Source of the DNA: Myxococcaceae bacterium
GTDB taxonomy: Bacteria; Myxococcota; Myxococcia; Myxococcales; Myxococcaceae
Reading direction: 5' to 3'
Length of the DNA stretch: 38,707 nt
Assembly (NCBI GenBank): GCA_003818285.1
Contig: RPRB01000023.1
Span: 1 to 38,707 of the forward strand
Shown here: piece by piece, positions 28,125 to 34,216 of the stretch
Layout: each line of letters begins with the position of its first letter
Position numbering within the stretch: position 1 is the stretch's first letter
Position numbers and translations under genes: made by a program
The notes under the pieces: generated by a model
The model's database searches: none
What the model was told of the DNA's origin: nothing
What the model saw: the letters and a program-made list of their open reading frames with translations, nothing else

Positions 28125-29017
28125 CCGCGCCTCTGCCAGTGGAGCCCGCGGTTCGGCCCGAGCCGTCCGATCCTTCCGAGCTGGTCCCCGAGCTCACGCG
28201 CCTGGCGCTCGCCTCGGCGTGCAAGGCCGAGTTCCGAGGGCGGGCGCTCGCGCTGCTCTCCCGTGCGCTCCCCTTCGACCGCGCGGTCTGGGAGGAGGTT
28301 CCGCCGTTCGGCGAGTTTCGCGTCGTGTACCCCGGGCTGAGCTGGGTCGCTGGTCGCGCCGGCGAGGAGCGGGGTCCGGCGTGCGTGATGTCCGGCCCGG
28401 CGTGCGACGGGAACCCCGATGGACCGGTGACCGGCGGCGAGCTTCGCTCCGCGCCGGAGCCGGAGCGCCGGCGAGCGGTGCTGCGCCTGGACCTCGAGCG
28501 CCTCGGACGCACGCGGGCGGTTCTCACGGTGGAGCGGGCAGGGGGGGCGTTCGGAGTCAGGGACGTCGACTGGCTCCGGGCGCTTCTACCGACGCTCATC
28601 CTCGCGGACGAGGGCACGGCGATGAGCGCCGGTCCTTCGCGTGCGCTCACCCCGCGGGAGGCCGACGTGGTGGAGTACGTGCGGCTCGGGTACACGAACG
28701 CGCAGATCGCGCTGGCGACCGGGCGGTCAGTCGCGGCGGTACGCAACGTGCTGGTGCGGATCTTCGACAAGACGGGAGTTCGCACGCGGGCCCAGCTGGT
28801 GGGCGGTCCGTTGACCACCTCGGGGCTCACCCGGCGCGAGCGGGAGATCGTGGAGAAGCTCAGGGCGGGCCTGACCAACCGGGAGATCGGCCGAGACCTC
28901 GGGATCTCCGCCAACACCGTCCGGAACACGCTCTCGCGCCTGTTCGAGAAGGTGGGCGTGTCGACTCGGTCCGAGCTGATGGGCGCGCTCGCGGCGGATC
29001 CCTCGGAGACGACGTGA
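28121..29017 (+). CDS. Double-HTH LuxR-type regulator
   Basis: This 298-residue protein starts at ATG 28121 (the frame is open upstream from 27752, but that would lie inside the preceding gene). The N-terminal region (about 20-165) resembles that of its partner in layout. Two complete LuxR HTH domains follow in tandem: 176-228 (LTPREADVVEYVRLGYTNAQIALATGRSVAAVRNVLVRIFDKTGVRTRAQLVG) is split by GGPLTTSG from 236-288 (LTRREREIVEKLRAGLTNREIGRDLGISANTVRNTLSRLFEKVGVSTRSELMG). Both keep the LuxR core (LTxRE, TNxxI, TVRN-like). One LuxR protein normally has a single HTH and dimerises, so this looks like an internal duplication that could bind two half-sites as a monomer. Confidence 0.92.
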   Translation: MTAPLPVEPAVRPEPSDPSELVPELTRLALASACKAEFRGRALALLSRALPFDRAVWEEVPPFGEFRVVYPGLSWVAGRAGEERGPACVMSGPACDGNPDGPVTGGELRSAPEPERRRAVLRLDLERLGRTRAVLTVERAGGAFGVRDVDWLRALLPTLILADEGTAMSAGPSRALTPREADVVEYVRLGYTNAQIALATGRSVAAVRNVLVRIFDKTGVRTRAQLVGGPLTTSGLTRREREIVEKLRAGLTNREIGRDLGISANTVRNTLSRLFEKVGVSTRSELMGALAADPSETT

Positions 29018-29060
29018 GGCGGTCGGGGTATCCCGTCACGAGGTTGGTGCCGAGGCGGCC

Positions 29061-29202
29061 GTAACGAGTCCGTAACGAGGTGTCTGGCACCTCGAACCTT
29101 GCACCTCGAACCCGGTAACGAGGTGTTTGGCACCTCGAACCTGGCACCTCGAGCCGGTAACGAGGTGTCCGGTAACGAGGTGTCTGGCACCTCGAACCCG
29201 GG
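29061..29202 (+). repeat. Tandem array of the dispersed palindrome (copies 2-4)
   Basis: Units starting GTAACGAGGTGT occur at 29072, 29115, 29157 (cut short) and 29172, with a fragment at 29061. The full units are spaced 43 and 42 bp. Three carry complete palindromes: 29076-29094 (loop TCTGG), 29119-29137 (loop TTTGG) and 29176-29194 (loop TCTGG). Between them lie half-arms such as GCACCTCGA. All three face the same way, opposite to copies 1, 5, 7 and 8. Confidence 0.88.
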
Positions 29203-29357
29203 CACGTCGAGCCTCCCGGAGCCGACGGGGGCGCGCTCGCAGCCAACCCGCGGAAAGGACGTGAGCAGGCCGGAGGGTGTCCGGTCCGAGGGGGCTCGCA
29301 CTCAGGGCACCTCCACGGGGACGAAAGCCGAGTGCGTGCAACCGGCAACGGCCAACC

Positions 29358-29408
29358 GGGTGCCCGCACGCGGGTGCCCGCACGCGGGTGCCAGACACCT
29401 CGTTACCG
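29358..29408 (-). repeat. 14-bp tandem repeat ending in palindrome copy 5
   Basis: GGGTGCCCGCACGC is repeated about two and a half times and runs into GGGTGCCAGACACCTCG (palindrome 29385-29402), followed by TTACC. The orientation is inverted relative to the array at 29061-29202, so the two ends enclose about 340 bp with GTAAC tails pointing outward. Confidence 0.8.
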
Positions 29409-29473
29409 GCCTCGTTACCGCCGCGGTCGCACCCTTGCTGGAGAGCGGTTTCACCGCGCACCGGTCGCCGTCA

Positions 29474-29492
29474 CGAGATGTCTGGCACGTCG
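29474..29492 (+). repeat. Decayed palindrome, copy 6
   Basis: CGAGATGTCTGGCACGTCG matches the family at 17 of 19 positions with loop TCTGG, but a change in each arm breaks the pairing. It is the last copy before the receptor gene. Confidence 0.6.
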
Positions 29493-29685
29493 ACCGGCGC
29501 GTCAGTGAGTCGTCAAGTCAGCGCGCGAGGAGTTCGAGCCGGACCGTTGCGACGTGGTTGCCGGCCTCGACGTGTCCGGCACCGGAAGAAGCAGCGGCGG
29601 CCGATTGTCCTCGTGCCGCCTCCTCCGCGCAGCGACGCACGACACCCAGCACGCGCTTCGTTGCGGCCGCATCGGCGCTCGCGCG

Positions 29686-29751
29686 TACCAGCCCCGTACC
29701 GGTCGTTCGGACCACGGGTACCAGCGTCGTACCGGTTGGTCGGACCACGGA
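29686..29751 (+). repeat. 33-bp direct repeat (two copies) upstream of the receptor
   Basis: Copy 1 is 29686-29718 and copy 2 is 29719-29751. They start TACCAGC, share GTACCGG and end TCGGACCACGG. Each contains an imperfect dyad around GGTC/GACC. The 33-bp spacing is close to three helical turns and the second copy ends 45 bp before the receptor ATG, so this may be a pair of binding sites for an activator; that use is inferred. Confidence 0.7.
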
Positions 29752-29770
29752 AGTGATCGAGCACGCTCCG

Positions 29771-29800
29771 GTATCCCTCCTCGAAACGGAGGAGGGATGT
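29771..29800 (+). promoter_or_regulatory. Hairpin covering the RBS and start codon of the TonB receptor
   Basis: ATCCCTCCTC (29773-29782) pairs perfectly with GAGGAGGGAT (29789-29798) around the loop GAAACG. Two further G-U wobble pairs are possible outside. The right arm contains the Shine-Dalgarno GGAGG and the A and T of the ATG at 29797. In RNA this would hide the ribosome site until it is opened. Confidence 0.75.
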
Positions 29801-32800
29801 TCGTGCGATTGATTCGTTCGAGAGGGGTTGGCGCGCTCGCGCTCGCTGCCGCGCTGCTCCCCTCGGTGGTTCTTGCGCAGGGGGCGACCTCGGTCCTCAC
29901 CGGAAACGTGGTCGACACCCAGACCCACGCTCCGGTTCCCGACGTGGTCGTGACGGCCACCTCGCCCAGCCTGCAGGGAGAGCAGGTGGTGGTCACGGAC
30001 TCGACGGGGCTGTACCGGATCCCGCAGCTGCCGCCGGGCACGTACACCCTCCGGTTCGAGAAGGAGACGTATCGCCCGTACACCCGGACCGGGATCGACG
30101 TCGCGGCGGACCGGACCTTGCGGCTCAACCTGGAGCTCCTGCCCGAGGCGCTCGAGAGCGAGACCATCGTCATCACCGGTGCGGCCCCGGTGGTGGACGT
30201 GGGCTCCAGCGCGGTCGGAGCCACCATCAATCAGGACTTCCTTCGCAACTTCGCGCTGAGCCGCGCGGGCGGCATTGGCGGGGCGGTCCGCTCGTTCGAC
30301 TCGATCGCCACCGCGGCTCCCCAGGCGGCGGCAGACCTCTACGGCATCTCGATCAGCGGCGCGACCTCGCCCGAGAACTCGTACCTGATCGACGGCCTGT
30401 CGGTGAACAACCCGGCCTACGGAGTCCTCGGCACCCCGCTCACGGTCGAGTTCCTCGACGAGGTGAACGTCATCACCGGCGGCTACATGCCCGAGTACGG
30501 GCGCACGACGGGCGGCGCGGTGAGCGGCGTCACCAAGTCAGGCGGCAACGAGTTCCACGGGAGCGTGTGGGGCACGTTCACCCCTGGCGCGCTCCAGGGT
30601 CGCGCCAAGACGGTGACCACCGCCGGAGCGGTCGTCTCCGGAAAGCGCGAGCTGTACAACATCGGTGATTTCGGGGCGACGCTCGGCGGTTACATCATCA
30701 AGGACAAGCTCTGGTTCTTTGCCGGCATCCAGCCGAGCTTCACGCGGTACTCGTATACCCGGCAGTTCTACATCGAGAACCCGGGTCAGACCGATGCCGA
30801 CGGAAACCAGGCCTACTCGCTCATCCCCAACAGCGATCAGCGCCGGTTCGCGGACGAGAAGTCGTTCCAGTTCATCGGCAAGCTGACCTACCTCATCAGC
30901 TCCGATCACCGCCTGAGCCTCACGGTGACCGGAACGCCGACCACGGGCGGCAGCGACGCGGCGTTCTCGGTCCGGCCGCCGGGTGGGCTTGCCAACCGTG
31001 CTCCCTTCGCGCTCAGCGGCTACACCTTCCAGACCTTCAACTCCAACCACTACCTGACCAACGACACGGCCTACGACCTGAGCGGGGAGCTGAACAGCAG
31101 CTTCCTGGACAAGAAGCTGCTCCTCGACGTGCGGCTCGGCTGGCACCACCAGCTCGACGAGGGCGCGCCGGGCGACGGGAGCGGGTTCGACAACATCCAC
31201 CACCTGAACACGCTCGCCGGCATCCCGTCGCTGCAGCCCCTCTACGTCAGCAACGTGCTCGACTTCGAGGACCAGGTCCCGGCGAGCGTCAGAGACGCGT
31301 GCGGAACCGGTGACCGCACCACGAAGTGTCAGACCACCTGGAATCTCTACGGTGGGCCCAACTTCCTCGAGCGCCAGACGCTGGACTCGTTCCAGGGGAA
31401 GGCGACCCTCACCTATCTGCTCGCCGCGCTCGGCCACCATGTGATCAAGGCCGGTGTCGACGGGAGCCTCTCCTACTACGAACATCTCAAGACCTACGGC
31501 GGCGGGGCCTGGTACTTCGATTTCGGTCCCGGTGGGGTGGCGCCGGGGAACTCCCTCGGCGTCCAGGAGGCGCGGCGGTTCGGATTCCTTTCGGACATCG
31601 ACACGCCGACTGGCAACGGCATCCTCACCGTCAAGAGCAAGTCGGTGATCATCGGCGGCTTCGTCCAGGACAGCTGGAGCATCCTGGACAAGGTCACGCT
31701 GAACGTCGGCCTGCGGTGGGACGGCCAGTACCTCTACGACAAGGATGGCCTGTTGGCGATGAAGCTCGGCAACGAGTGGTCGCCGCGCATCGGATTCGTG
31801 TGGGATCCGACGCAGCAGGGCCGCTCGAAGATCTTCGCCAACTACGGCCGCTACTACGAGGCGATCCCGCTGGACATCGCCGACCGGGCGCTCTCCGGCG
31901 AGAGCCTGGTGATCGCCAACCACGACTGCGATCCGCGCGTCGTCGGAGTCGCGGGCTGCGACCTGGCCACGGCCAACCGGGGGTCGAACATCGCCAGGCC
32001 CAACGTGAAGTGGCGAAACCTCGCGGTGGACAAGACGGCGGTGGATCCGAACCTGCAGCCGACCACCAACGACGAGGTCGTCGCCGGCGGCGAGTACGAG
32101 GTCTTCCCCAGCGCCCGCGTCGGCGTCTCCTACACGTACCGGAACCTGGTCCGCACCATCGAGGACATGTCGGCCGACAACGGGAACACCTACTTCGTCG
32201 GGAACCCCGGCGAGGGCATCGCCACGTCCTTCCCCAAGGCGACGCGCACGTACCACGCGGTGACCGTCCAGTTCACGAAGAACTTCAGCGACCTCTGGCA
32301 GGCGCAGGTCAGCTACACCTGGGCACAGCTGCGAGGGAACTACGAGGGCCTGTTCGTCAACGGAACCGGGCAGCTCGATCCCAACATCAACGCGACCTTC
32401 GACCTGGCCCAGCTCCTGGTGAACCAGGACGGGCCGCTGTCTGGCGACATCACCCACACCATCAAGTTCTTTGCAGCGAAGGAGTTCATCGTCACGCCGG
32501 TGCTGAGCCTCACCCTCGGCCTGACGTACACCGGCGCGTCGGGACCACCCATCAGCTACACCGGCCCGTCCAACGAGACCGGTTACGGCCCGGGAAACGT
32601 GTACATCCTCGAGCGCGGGCAGGGTGGGCGGCTCCCGTGGGTGCACAGCGTCGATGCCCGGCTCGCGCTGAACCTCCGGCTGGGCAAGGACAGCGTGATC
32701 TCGGTCGGGGTCGACGGGTTCAATCTCTTCAACTTCCAGAACCCGATCCGGGTCGACGAGGAGTACGTGGTCCTGCCGTCGCTGACCGGCGGCGGGCGCG

Positions 32801-33036
32801 ACCCCGGGCCGATCATCAATGGGAAGCAGGGCAGTGTGCCTCCCCCGTACGGGGCGAACGGGAACCTGCCTCGCGGTGGAGTGGTGGCCGGGCCGAACGG
32901 GCCAGAGCTGAAGACAGTTGTCCTGCCGGATCCCGACCAGCAGCCGCAGACCTACGCGATCAACCCGAACTGGGGCCGGGCTCTGCAGTACCAGGCCGTG
33001 CGCAGCTTCCGGTTCACCGCCCGCTTCACCTTCTGA
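29797..33036 (+). CDS. Oar-like TonB-dependent receptor with carboxypeptidase regulatory-like domain
   Basis: This is a 1079-residue outer-membrane protein. The signal peptide covers residues 1 to about 27 (RLIRSRGVGALALAAALLPSVVLA). Residues 32-115 form the carboxypeptidase-D regulatory-like Ig fold (GNVVDTQTHAPVPDVVVTATS ... PPGTYTLRFEKETY). ETIVITG at 122-128 is TonB-box-like. The plug covers about 130-255 (SYLIDGLSVNNPAYG, MPEYGRTTGGAVSGVTKSGGNEFHG), followed by a barrel of about 820 residues ending in the outer-membrane signal ARFTF. This is the layout of Myxococcus Oar, which is needed for PopC protease export and development; the substrate here is unknown. ATG 29797 is used, but a GTG at 29803 has ideal spacing from GGAGGG and would give the same signal peptide without MF. 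It is followed 14 bp later by a Cys-rich lipoprotein. Confidence 0.95.
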   Translation: MFVRLIRSRGVGALALAAALLPSVVLAQGATSVLTGNVVDTQTHAPVPDVVVTATSPSLQGEQVVVTDSTGLYRIPQLPPGTYTLRFEKETYRPYTRTGIDVAADRTLRLNLELLPEALESETIVITGAAPVVDVGSSAVGATINQDFLRNFALSRAGGIGGAVRSFDSIATAAPQAAADLYGISISGATSPENSYLIDGLSVNNPAYGVLGTPLTVEFLDEVNVITGGYMPEYGRTTGGAVSGVTKSGGNEFHGSVWGTFTPGALQGRAKTVTTAGAVVSGKRELYNIGDFGATLGGYIIKDKLWFFAGIQPSFTRYSYTRQFYIENPGQTDADGNQAYSLIPNSDQRRFADEKSFQFIGKLTYLISSDHRLSLTVTGTPTTGGSDAAFSVRPPGGLANRAPFALSGYTFQTFNSNHYLTNDTAYDLSGELNSSFLDKKLLLDVRLGWHHQLDEGAPGDGSGFDNIHHLNTLAGIPSLQPLYVSNVLDFEDQVPASVRDACGTGDRTTKCQTTWNLYGGPNFLERQTLDSFQGKATLTYLLAALGHHVIKAGVDGSLSYYEHLKTYGGGAWYFDFGPGGVAPGNSLGVQEARRFGFLSDIDTPTGNGILTVKSKSVIIGGFVQDSWSILDKVTLNVGLRWDGQYLYDKDGLLAMKLGNEWSPRIGFVWDPTQQGRSKIFANYGRYYEAIPLDIADRALSGESLVIANHDCDPRVVGVAGCDLATANRGSNIARPNVKWRNLAVDKTAVDPNLQPTTNDEVVAGGEYEVFPSARVGVSYTYRNLVRTIEDMSADNGNTYFVGNPGEGIATSFPKATRTYHAVTVQFTKNFSDLWQAQVSYTWAQLRGNYEGLFVNGTGQLDPNINATFDLAQLLVNQDGPLSGDITHTIKFFAAKEFIVTPVLSLTLGLTYTGASGPPISYTGPSNETGYGPGNVYILERGQGGRLPWVHSVDARLALNLRLGKDSVISVGVDGFNLFNFQNPIRVDEEYVVLPSLTGGGRDPGPIINGKQGSVPPPYGANGNLPRGGVVAGPNGPELKTVVLPDPDQQPQTYAINPNWGRALQYQAVRSFRFTARFTF

Positions 33037-33050
33037 GGACCGACGACACC

Positions 33051-33791
33051 ATGTTCAAGCCTTCGTTCCTTGTGGTGCCTCTCCTCGTGATGCTCGCGGC
33101 TTGCGGAGGAGAGGTGAACACCACCTGCCTGGTGCAGCGCCCGGGGCTGGGCGGGTACCTGTTCGTGATGGACCGCACGGGGGCGGTGACCGGCGGAGCG
33201 GGATGCGACGACTCCGTGCTCCCGCCGCGGCTGGCGGACAACCTCCGCTTCGACAAGCTCGGTGCCGAGCAGCGCGAGGTGGTCTTCCGCGCAGAGTCGA
33301 TGCTGCCGACCGACGCTGATGGCAATCCGGACTTCCCGGCCTCGACCGGTGACGTGGGCCGAGGGCAGATCGGCGACTCGCCCGACGCGCAGGGAGTCTG
33401 CACGGTTCCGACCTTCACCACGGCCAACGCCGTCGCCGCTCTGAGCGACGGGAACCCTCCGAATCCGCCGCGGTCGGTCACCCTGACGAACACCCGGTTC
33501 CTGAGCGCCCCGGAGTACCAGGGCTCTCAGGCCGAGAGCGACGCGACCTACACCATCGGATCCTGCAGCGCGAGCTACCACGGCCTGTTGCTGACGCCGA
33601 TCGCGACCTGCGCCACGGACGCCGACTGCAATCCGTTCGCCGATCCGGCGAACGGGCGAGCGGCAGGCTCCGGCGTGAACCCCCTCTATCCGGTGAGCTG
33701 CAACATGGAGGTCGGGGCGCTCTACGGCCAGGATCCCGGAACCGGCATCTGCTGGTTCACGGGCAGCACGTTCCCGCAGATCCAGAAGTAG
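33051..33791 (+). CDS. Cys-rich lipoprotein, partner of the Oar-like receptor
   Basis: This is a 246-residue protein. Residues 1-18 form a lipoprotein signal with lipobox LAAC (Cys18). The mature part holds about nine more Cys (TTCLV, GAGCDD, GVCTV, GSCSAS, ATCATDADCNPF, VSCNME, GICWF), so disulfide bonds in the periplasm or on the surface are likely. CATDADC matches the C-x-x-D-x-D-C segment frequent in secreted myxobacterial proteins. No known domain is recognised. It starts 14 bp after the receptor stop in the same orientation, so the two are very probably one operon, and a role in recognising or holding the receptor's substrate is inferred. Confidence 0.88.
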   Translation: MFKPSFLVVPLLVMLAACGGEVNTTCLVQRPGLGGYLFVMDRTGAVTGGAGCDDSVLPPRLADNLRFDKLGAEQREVVFRAESMLPTDADGNPDFPASTGDVGRGQIGDSPDAQGVCTVPTFTTANAVAALSDGNPPNPPRSVTLTNTRFLSAPEYQGSQAESDATYTIGSCSASYHGLLLTPIATCATDADCNPFADPANGRAAGSGVNPLYPVSCNMEVGALYGQDPGTGICWFTGSTFPQIQK

Positions 33792-33829
33792 CCGGAGTGT
33801 CGATCGGACCCTGACGGGGAGGGCGCCCG

Positions 33830-33930
33830 GAGGTGCCCCCCCGGTGCCGCCTCGAACGTGCGTCGGGGGGTGCCGGTCGGTGCCCCCCGAGCGGTGCCCC
33901 CCCGAGCGGTGCCAGACACCTCGTTACGTT
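33830..33930 (-). repeat. GGTGCC-rich cluster ending in palindrome copy 7
   Basis: Repeated GGTGCC segments include CGAGCGGTGCC at 33888-33898 and 33903-33913 (15-bp period). They run into CGGTGCCAGACACCTCG (33907-33923, core GGTGCCAGACACC) followed by TTACG. The left arm differs by mutation from the consensus. Confidence 0.75.
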
Positions 33931-34093
33931 GTTTGCCCGGCAGCCGAGACGGGGGGCATCACCTCGTCGGTCTTGCTCACCGGACGGCACCGTCCGCGCT
34001 GGTCGACGGTCCTCACCCGTTGTCGTGTCCTGAGGTCTTCTCCGAGTCGGGGTTCCCAGCCGGCCGTCGGCCGGGAAGTGCCGTCGGGAGGTA

Positions 34094-34160
34094 CCGAGGT
34101 GCCGGTACCCGAGGTGCGTACCCGAGGTGCCTGCCCGAGGTGCCAGACACCTCGTTACGG
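34094..34160 (-). repeat. CGAGGTGC half-site array ending in palindrome copy 8
   Basis: CGAGGTGC occurs at 34095, 34110, 34123 and 34136 (spacings 15, 13, 13). The last one is part of the perfect palindrome CGAGGTGCCAGACACCTCG (34136-34154), followed by TTACGG. It faces the same way as copies 1, 5 and 7. Confidence 0.85.
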
Positions 34161-34216
34161 GCCCGTCCTGCCGGCACGGCACGACGGCTGTGTGTGGTAC
34201 GAGCCCTCCGTCCAGG

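Follow-up and report, generated by a model that had tools for sequence, protein, structure and literature searches.

In RNA thermometers of the ROSE and fourU types, the Shine-Dalgarno sequence (SD) is paired in a stem beside the start codon. Translational riboswitches have expression platforms in which an anti-SD arm lies upstream of the SD. Ribosome sites that are hidden by structure can also be served through standby binding (PMC7708055, PMC3936740). In Myxococcus xanthus, Oar is a TonB-dependent transporter required for the secretion of PopC (PMC6434023). A literature search for riboswitches or SD control in myxobacteria returned nothing specific. Here, an Oar-like receptor gene of an uncultured Myxococcaceae bacterium is considered, the SD of which is buried in a perfect hairpin. 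The gene lies in contig RPRB01000023.1, analysed over 38,707 nt (the window), and all coordinates below refer to the forward strand of this stretch. Most likely, the hairpin is either a brake on receptor expression or a product of chance.

The hairpin is real as a sequence feature. Positions 29772–29799 read TATCCCTCCTC-GAAACG-GAGGAGGGATG and provide 10 Watson–Crick pairs between 29773–29782 and 29789–29798, closed by a 6-nt loop, as a preliminary description had stated and as sequence and folding confirm. The structure comprises a 5′ arm (29772–29782, with ATCCCTCCTC at 29773–29782), the loop GAAACG (29783–29788) and a 3′ arm (29789–29799, with GAGGAGGGAT at 29789–29798); an extra closing pair, U29772–G29799, lies beneath the ten-pair stem. 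The G/C-rich core of eight pairs given in the same description holds loosely, six of the ten pairs being G–C and four A–U. The right arm (29789–29798) consists of the SD itself, GAGGAGGG, plus the AT of an ATG at 29797–29799. At 37°C, the hairpin alone is predicted to fold at −19.9 kcal/mol. It dominates the fold of the 101-nt leader (−44.9 kcal/mol; z −2.34, with 6 of 200 shuffles equally good) and is present in both the minimum free energy and centroid structures. By predicted fold, the SD lies in a stable local stem, as in SD-sequestering control hairpins.

For all tested transcript 5′ ends from 29520 to 29775, the predicted probability of an unpaired SD is 0.000, and freeing the SD is predicted to cost 11–17 kcal/mol. 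A transcript beginning at 29777 is predicted to have its SD partly free, and one beginning at 29779 or later largely free. A search for a sigma-70-like promoter upstream of the receptor gave no match. Some homologues have a recognisable TTGACA...TATTTT promoter, the spacing of which implies a 5′UTR of ∼40 nt; the same spacing applied by analogy to the window leader would include the whole hairpin. A static and very stable leader hairpin, the 3′ arm of which is the SD itself, would leave the SD essentially never free in transcripts starting upstream of ∼29775, and the closed SD would allow only weak initiation at the GTG at 29803. Ribosomes might enter by standby binding combined with breathing of the stem, by S1-assisted unfolding or by read-through from upstream. 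We infer that the hairpin is transcribed and that no trans-acting factor opens it; it would then probably keep receptor translation low. That the hairpin is a constitutive, static and lineage-specific brake on the expression of one receptor paralogue, and not a sensor, is the reading we favour, at about even odds.

The preliminary description had both the SD and the start codon hidden by the hairpin. The first part stands; the second probably does not. The gap from the GGAGG core is 7 nt to GTG 29803 and 1 or 4 nt to ATG 29797. Leaders of close relatives read GAGGAGGG-NTGNTC-NTG. The window leader was aligned with those of two relatives, C161a from the same genome and G001_C396 from the same genus. 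The start regions are GAGGAGGG-ATGTTC-GTG in the window, GAGGAGGG-CTGCTC-TTG in C161a and GAGGAGGG-GTGCTC-TTG in G001_C396, so that TTG stands opposite GTG 29803 and CTG or GTG opposite ATG 29797. The aligned TTG codons and the 7-nt spacing make GTG 29803 (29803–29805) the likelier start, as the description had offered as an alternative, and place the start codon outside the stem. In practice, the receptor start should be annotated at GTG 29803.

The receptor open reading frame (29803–33036) has Pfam matches above cut-off to PF13620, PF25183 and PF00593, and a plug match (PF07715) just under cut-off, with 21.5 versus 23.9 bits. This architecture, with a carboxypeptidase regulatory-like domain, a weak plug match and an outer-membrane beta-barrel, is that of the Oar-like family, and the N-terminal residues MRLIRSRGVGALALAAALLPSVVLA can be read as a signal peptide. 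A lipoprotein-like gene (33051–33791) follows downstream, recognised by tblastn matches beside the receptor paralogues (best E 5e-29). It has no Pfam match, and its relatives adjoin several other Oar-like receptors; judged from these neighbourhoods, the two genes appear to form a conserved pair. Just upstream of the hairpin, a repeat search detected a 33-nt tandem duplication, 85% identical (29682–29747), which is possibly a promoter or operator region. It contains GGACCAC and GGTTGGTC. C161a and a further paralogue, C161b, likewise have GGACCAC and TGGTTC-like motifs ∼80 nt before their starts, perhaps as a promoter element common to receptor paralogues.

The sole other member of the genus (G001, 82% complete) lacks the receptor gene at the matching site, on contig C40. 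There, the flanking regulator and ABC-transporter genes adjoin each other with ∼340 bp between them, in place of the ∼5.2 kb (28993–34193) that contain the receptor and the lipoprotein-like gene in the window. Both borders of this segment carry a dispersed palindromic element, GGTGCCAGACACCTCGTTAC, and similar copies are found in the short G001 interval. This comparison indicates that the receptor gene was gained or lost at the locus, as a cassette between repeats; therefore, a strict orthologue for covariation was not found. The palindromic element GTAACGAGGTGTCTGGCACC occurs in several copies and both orientations in the window, at 29072–29488, 33908–33928 and 34139–34159. It is also present at many places in G001 and constitutes a dispersed intergenic repeat family. 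A repeat-element reading of the hairpin leader itself is ruled out, since the whole leader and the exact stem pattern (CCCTCCTC N3–9 GAGGAGGG, searched in the 5.77 Mb genome) each occur once.

Four receptor paralogues pass the E 1e-10 threshold in the genome of the bacterium, three of them close (C49, C161a and C161b; 59–61% identical). In a supported tree, the window gene groups with C161b, C49, C161a and G001_C396, and branches first. The SDs of C161a and C161b are folded into local stems (CCCUCC.UCAC/GUGAGGAGGG and UCCUC/GAGGA over an inner GCUGC/GCAGU stem), with 5′ arms unlike that of the window and SD-opening costs among the highest 2% in the genome sample. In G001_C396 the SD-covering stem is weak, and C49 and its genus counterpart G001_C494 (two of the five relatives' leaders) have an open SD without such a stem. 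Among the four close relatives, a different SD-covering stem is found in two, a weak one in one and none in one. When the five other leaders from both genomes of the genus are all counted, the SD-covering tendency is not significant (Fisher p 0.15–0.18). Restriction to three chosen favourable relatives gives p 0.03–0.04; C161a and G001_C396 are not independent in these values. The hairpin arms differ in every relative, those of the paralogues being unlike except for the SD. The alignment of four leaders is unreliable in the 5′ arm and hence carries no covariation count; maintenance of pairing could be compared among paralogues, with a mixed outcome. Distant Myxococcaceae homologues have unrelated leaders with mostly open SDs, many of which combine an accessible GGAGG with TTGACA and a TATTTT-like box. 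As the stems of the relatives differ or are missing, the 5′ arm appears not to be conserved, an outcome that the preliminary description had named as evidence against its own reading and that applies here as far as relatives allow.

Short-loop perfect stems of 10 bp are nothing unusual in the window. With stems of at least 10 bp and loops of 3–12 nt, there are five entries at four distinct sites, versus ∼2 per Markov shuffle. The position over an SD is rare. A 719-kb sample of the same genome (72% GC) contains 422 SD-bearing starts, and among these the hairpin is the longest perfect stem covering an SD, the runner-up having 9 bp. Shuffles of the upstream 60 nt predict 0.05 starts per 422 with such a stem of at least 10 bp, or ∼0.6 when scaled up to ∼5,000 genes. 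The SD-opening cost of 12.4 kcal/mol ranks second of the 422 and is matched by 0.3% of mononucleotide and 0.7% of dinucleotide shuffles; local hairpin energy ranks only ∼12th of the 422, and some of the higher-ranked starts may be miscalled. Collectively, an SD-covering stem of this kind is rare at gene starts, yet one per genome is compatible with chance.

A functionless pairing is accordingly a serious contender, tentative as it is and of lesser probability than the brake. A strong purine-rich SD and a pyrimidine-rich stretch upstream, in a 72% GC genome, would have met by accident and been tolerated, the gene being rarely expressed or transcription starting inside or after the left arm. The near-shuffle stem count of the window and the genome-wide expectation fit this explanation, as do the unconserved arms, the open SDs of C49 and G001_C494 and the absence of the gene at the matching site of the congener. 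It accounts less well for an opening cost that beats 99% of upstream shuffles and for two paralogues, C161a and C161b, that likewise sequester their SD. A regulated switch, with the hairpin opened by a protein, an sRNA or ligand-driven refolding and the receptor turned on under some condition, is not supported and we regard it as improbable. An SD in a stem is the anatomy of translational switches, and PopC secretion links the gene family to regulated physiology in Myxococcus (PMC6434023). Folding at several temperatures, proposed in the preliminary description, nonetheless leaves the SD closed, with predicted unpaired probabilities of 0.000 at 37–45°C, 0.001 at 55°C and 0.012 at 75°C. An RNA thermometer is rejected, no SD opening being predicted below 75°C. 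An Rfam search of 29200–30200 returned three chance-level matches and none near its gathering score; a Whalefall-1 match overlapping the hairpin scores 13.6 bits, where the gathering threshold is 37. No competing fold freeing the SD lies within ∼11 kcal/mol in leaders of up to 280 nt. With neither an Rfam aptamer match nor an alternative SD-freeing fold (opening 11–17 kcal/mol), a riboswitch is not supported either, nor is the RNA switch that the description had suggested. The lack of arm conservation and the mostly open leaders of homologous Myxococcaceae genes also speak against regulation. Oar reaches the same level in M. xanthus cells whether they are fed or starving (PMC6434023), which offers no sign of translational switching in this family.

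Other explanations carry less weight. The genus's expanded Oar-like receptors may have independently evolved SD-covering hairpins with a fixed arm, GAGGAGG, and variable partners, such that a common factor or leader-peptide coupling could switch receptors on singly; this broader proposal is decidedly speculative. Coupling at the window locus itself would require ribosomes on a leader ORF to open the hairpin and then start anew at GTG 29803. A mechanical ORF scan yields a hypothetical 19-codon candidate with a weak SD (29753–29812, GTG to TGA; a longer frame could also serve) that spans the entire hairpin, overlaps the GTG 29803 start and stops 7 nt past the receptor GTG. We consider this very unlikely, since GTG 29753 has no convincing SD, an equivalent ORF was not established in the relatives' leaders, read by eye, and such open frames are common in GC-rich DNA. 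Hardly credible, finally, is a palindrome acting as a DNA operator for a transcription factor, with the RNA stem as a by-product. The perfect dyad with 10-nt arms near the start codon and the 33-nt tandem repeat just upstream would suit an operator, but the single occurrence of the arm pattern in the genome and the differing paralogue arms, apart from the SD, would not.

If the static brake works as predicted, the low expression of one receptor paralogue would be set by RNA structure alone. If true, it would show hidden ribosome sites coming and going among outer-membrane receptors that arose by duplication. At present, the locus offers a single hairpin, unconserved and set in a GC-rich genome. 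In comparison with RNA thermometers, the window stem is perfect and GC-rich, without mismatches or internal loops, and its predicted SD opening is ∼0 up to 65°C. In contrast to riboswitch platforms, the leader has no aptamer, anti-anti-SD fold or Rfam match. The receptor belongs to the same family as M. xanthus Oar by domains and by ∼45–50% identity to homologues throughout the Myxococcaceae; a TTGACA promoter together with an accessible GGAGG is found in many leaders of this family, whereas the window leader has neither. The standby hairpins of the tisB mRNA type (PMC7708055; biophysics in PMC3936740) likewise have their ribosome-binding site closed in a stable stem. The tisB mRNA depends on both a pseudoknot and a single-stranded region some distance away (PMC7708055); the window hairpin is a predicted fold. 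In tisB-type leaders, as would hold here, initiation must use upstream binding or unfolding.
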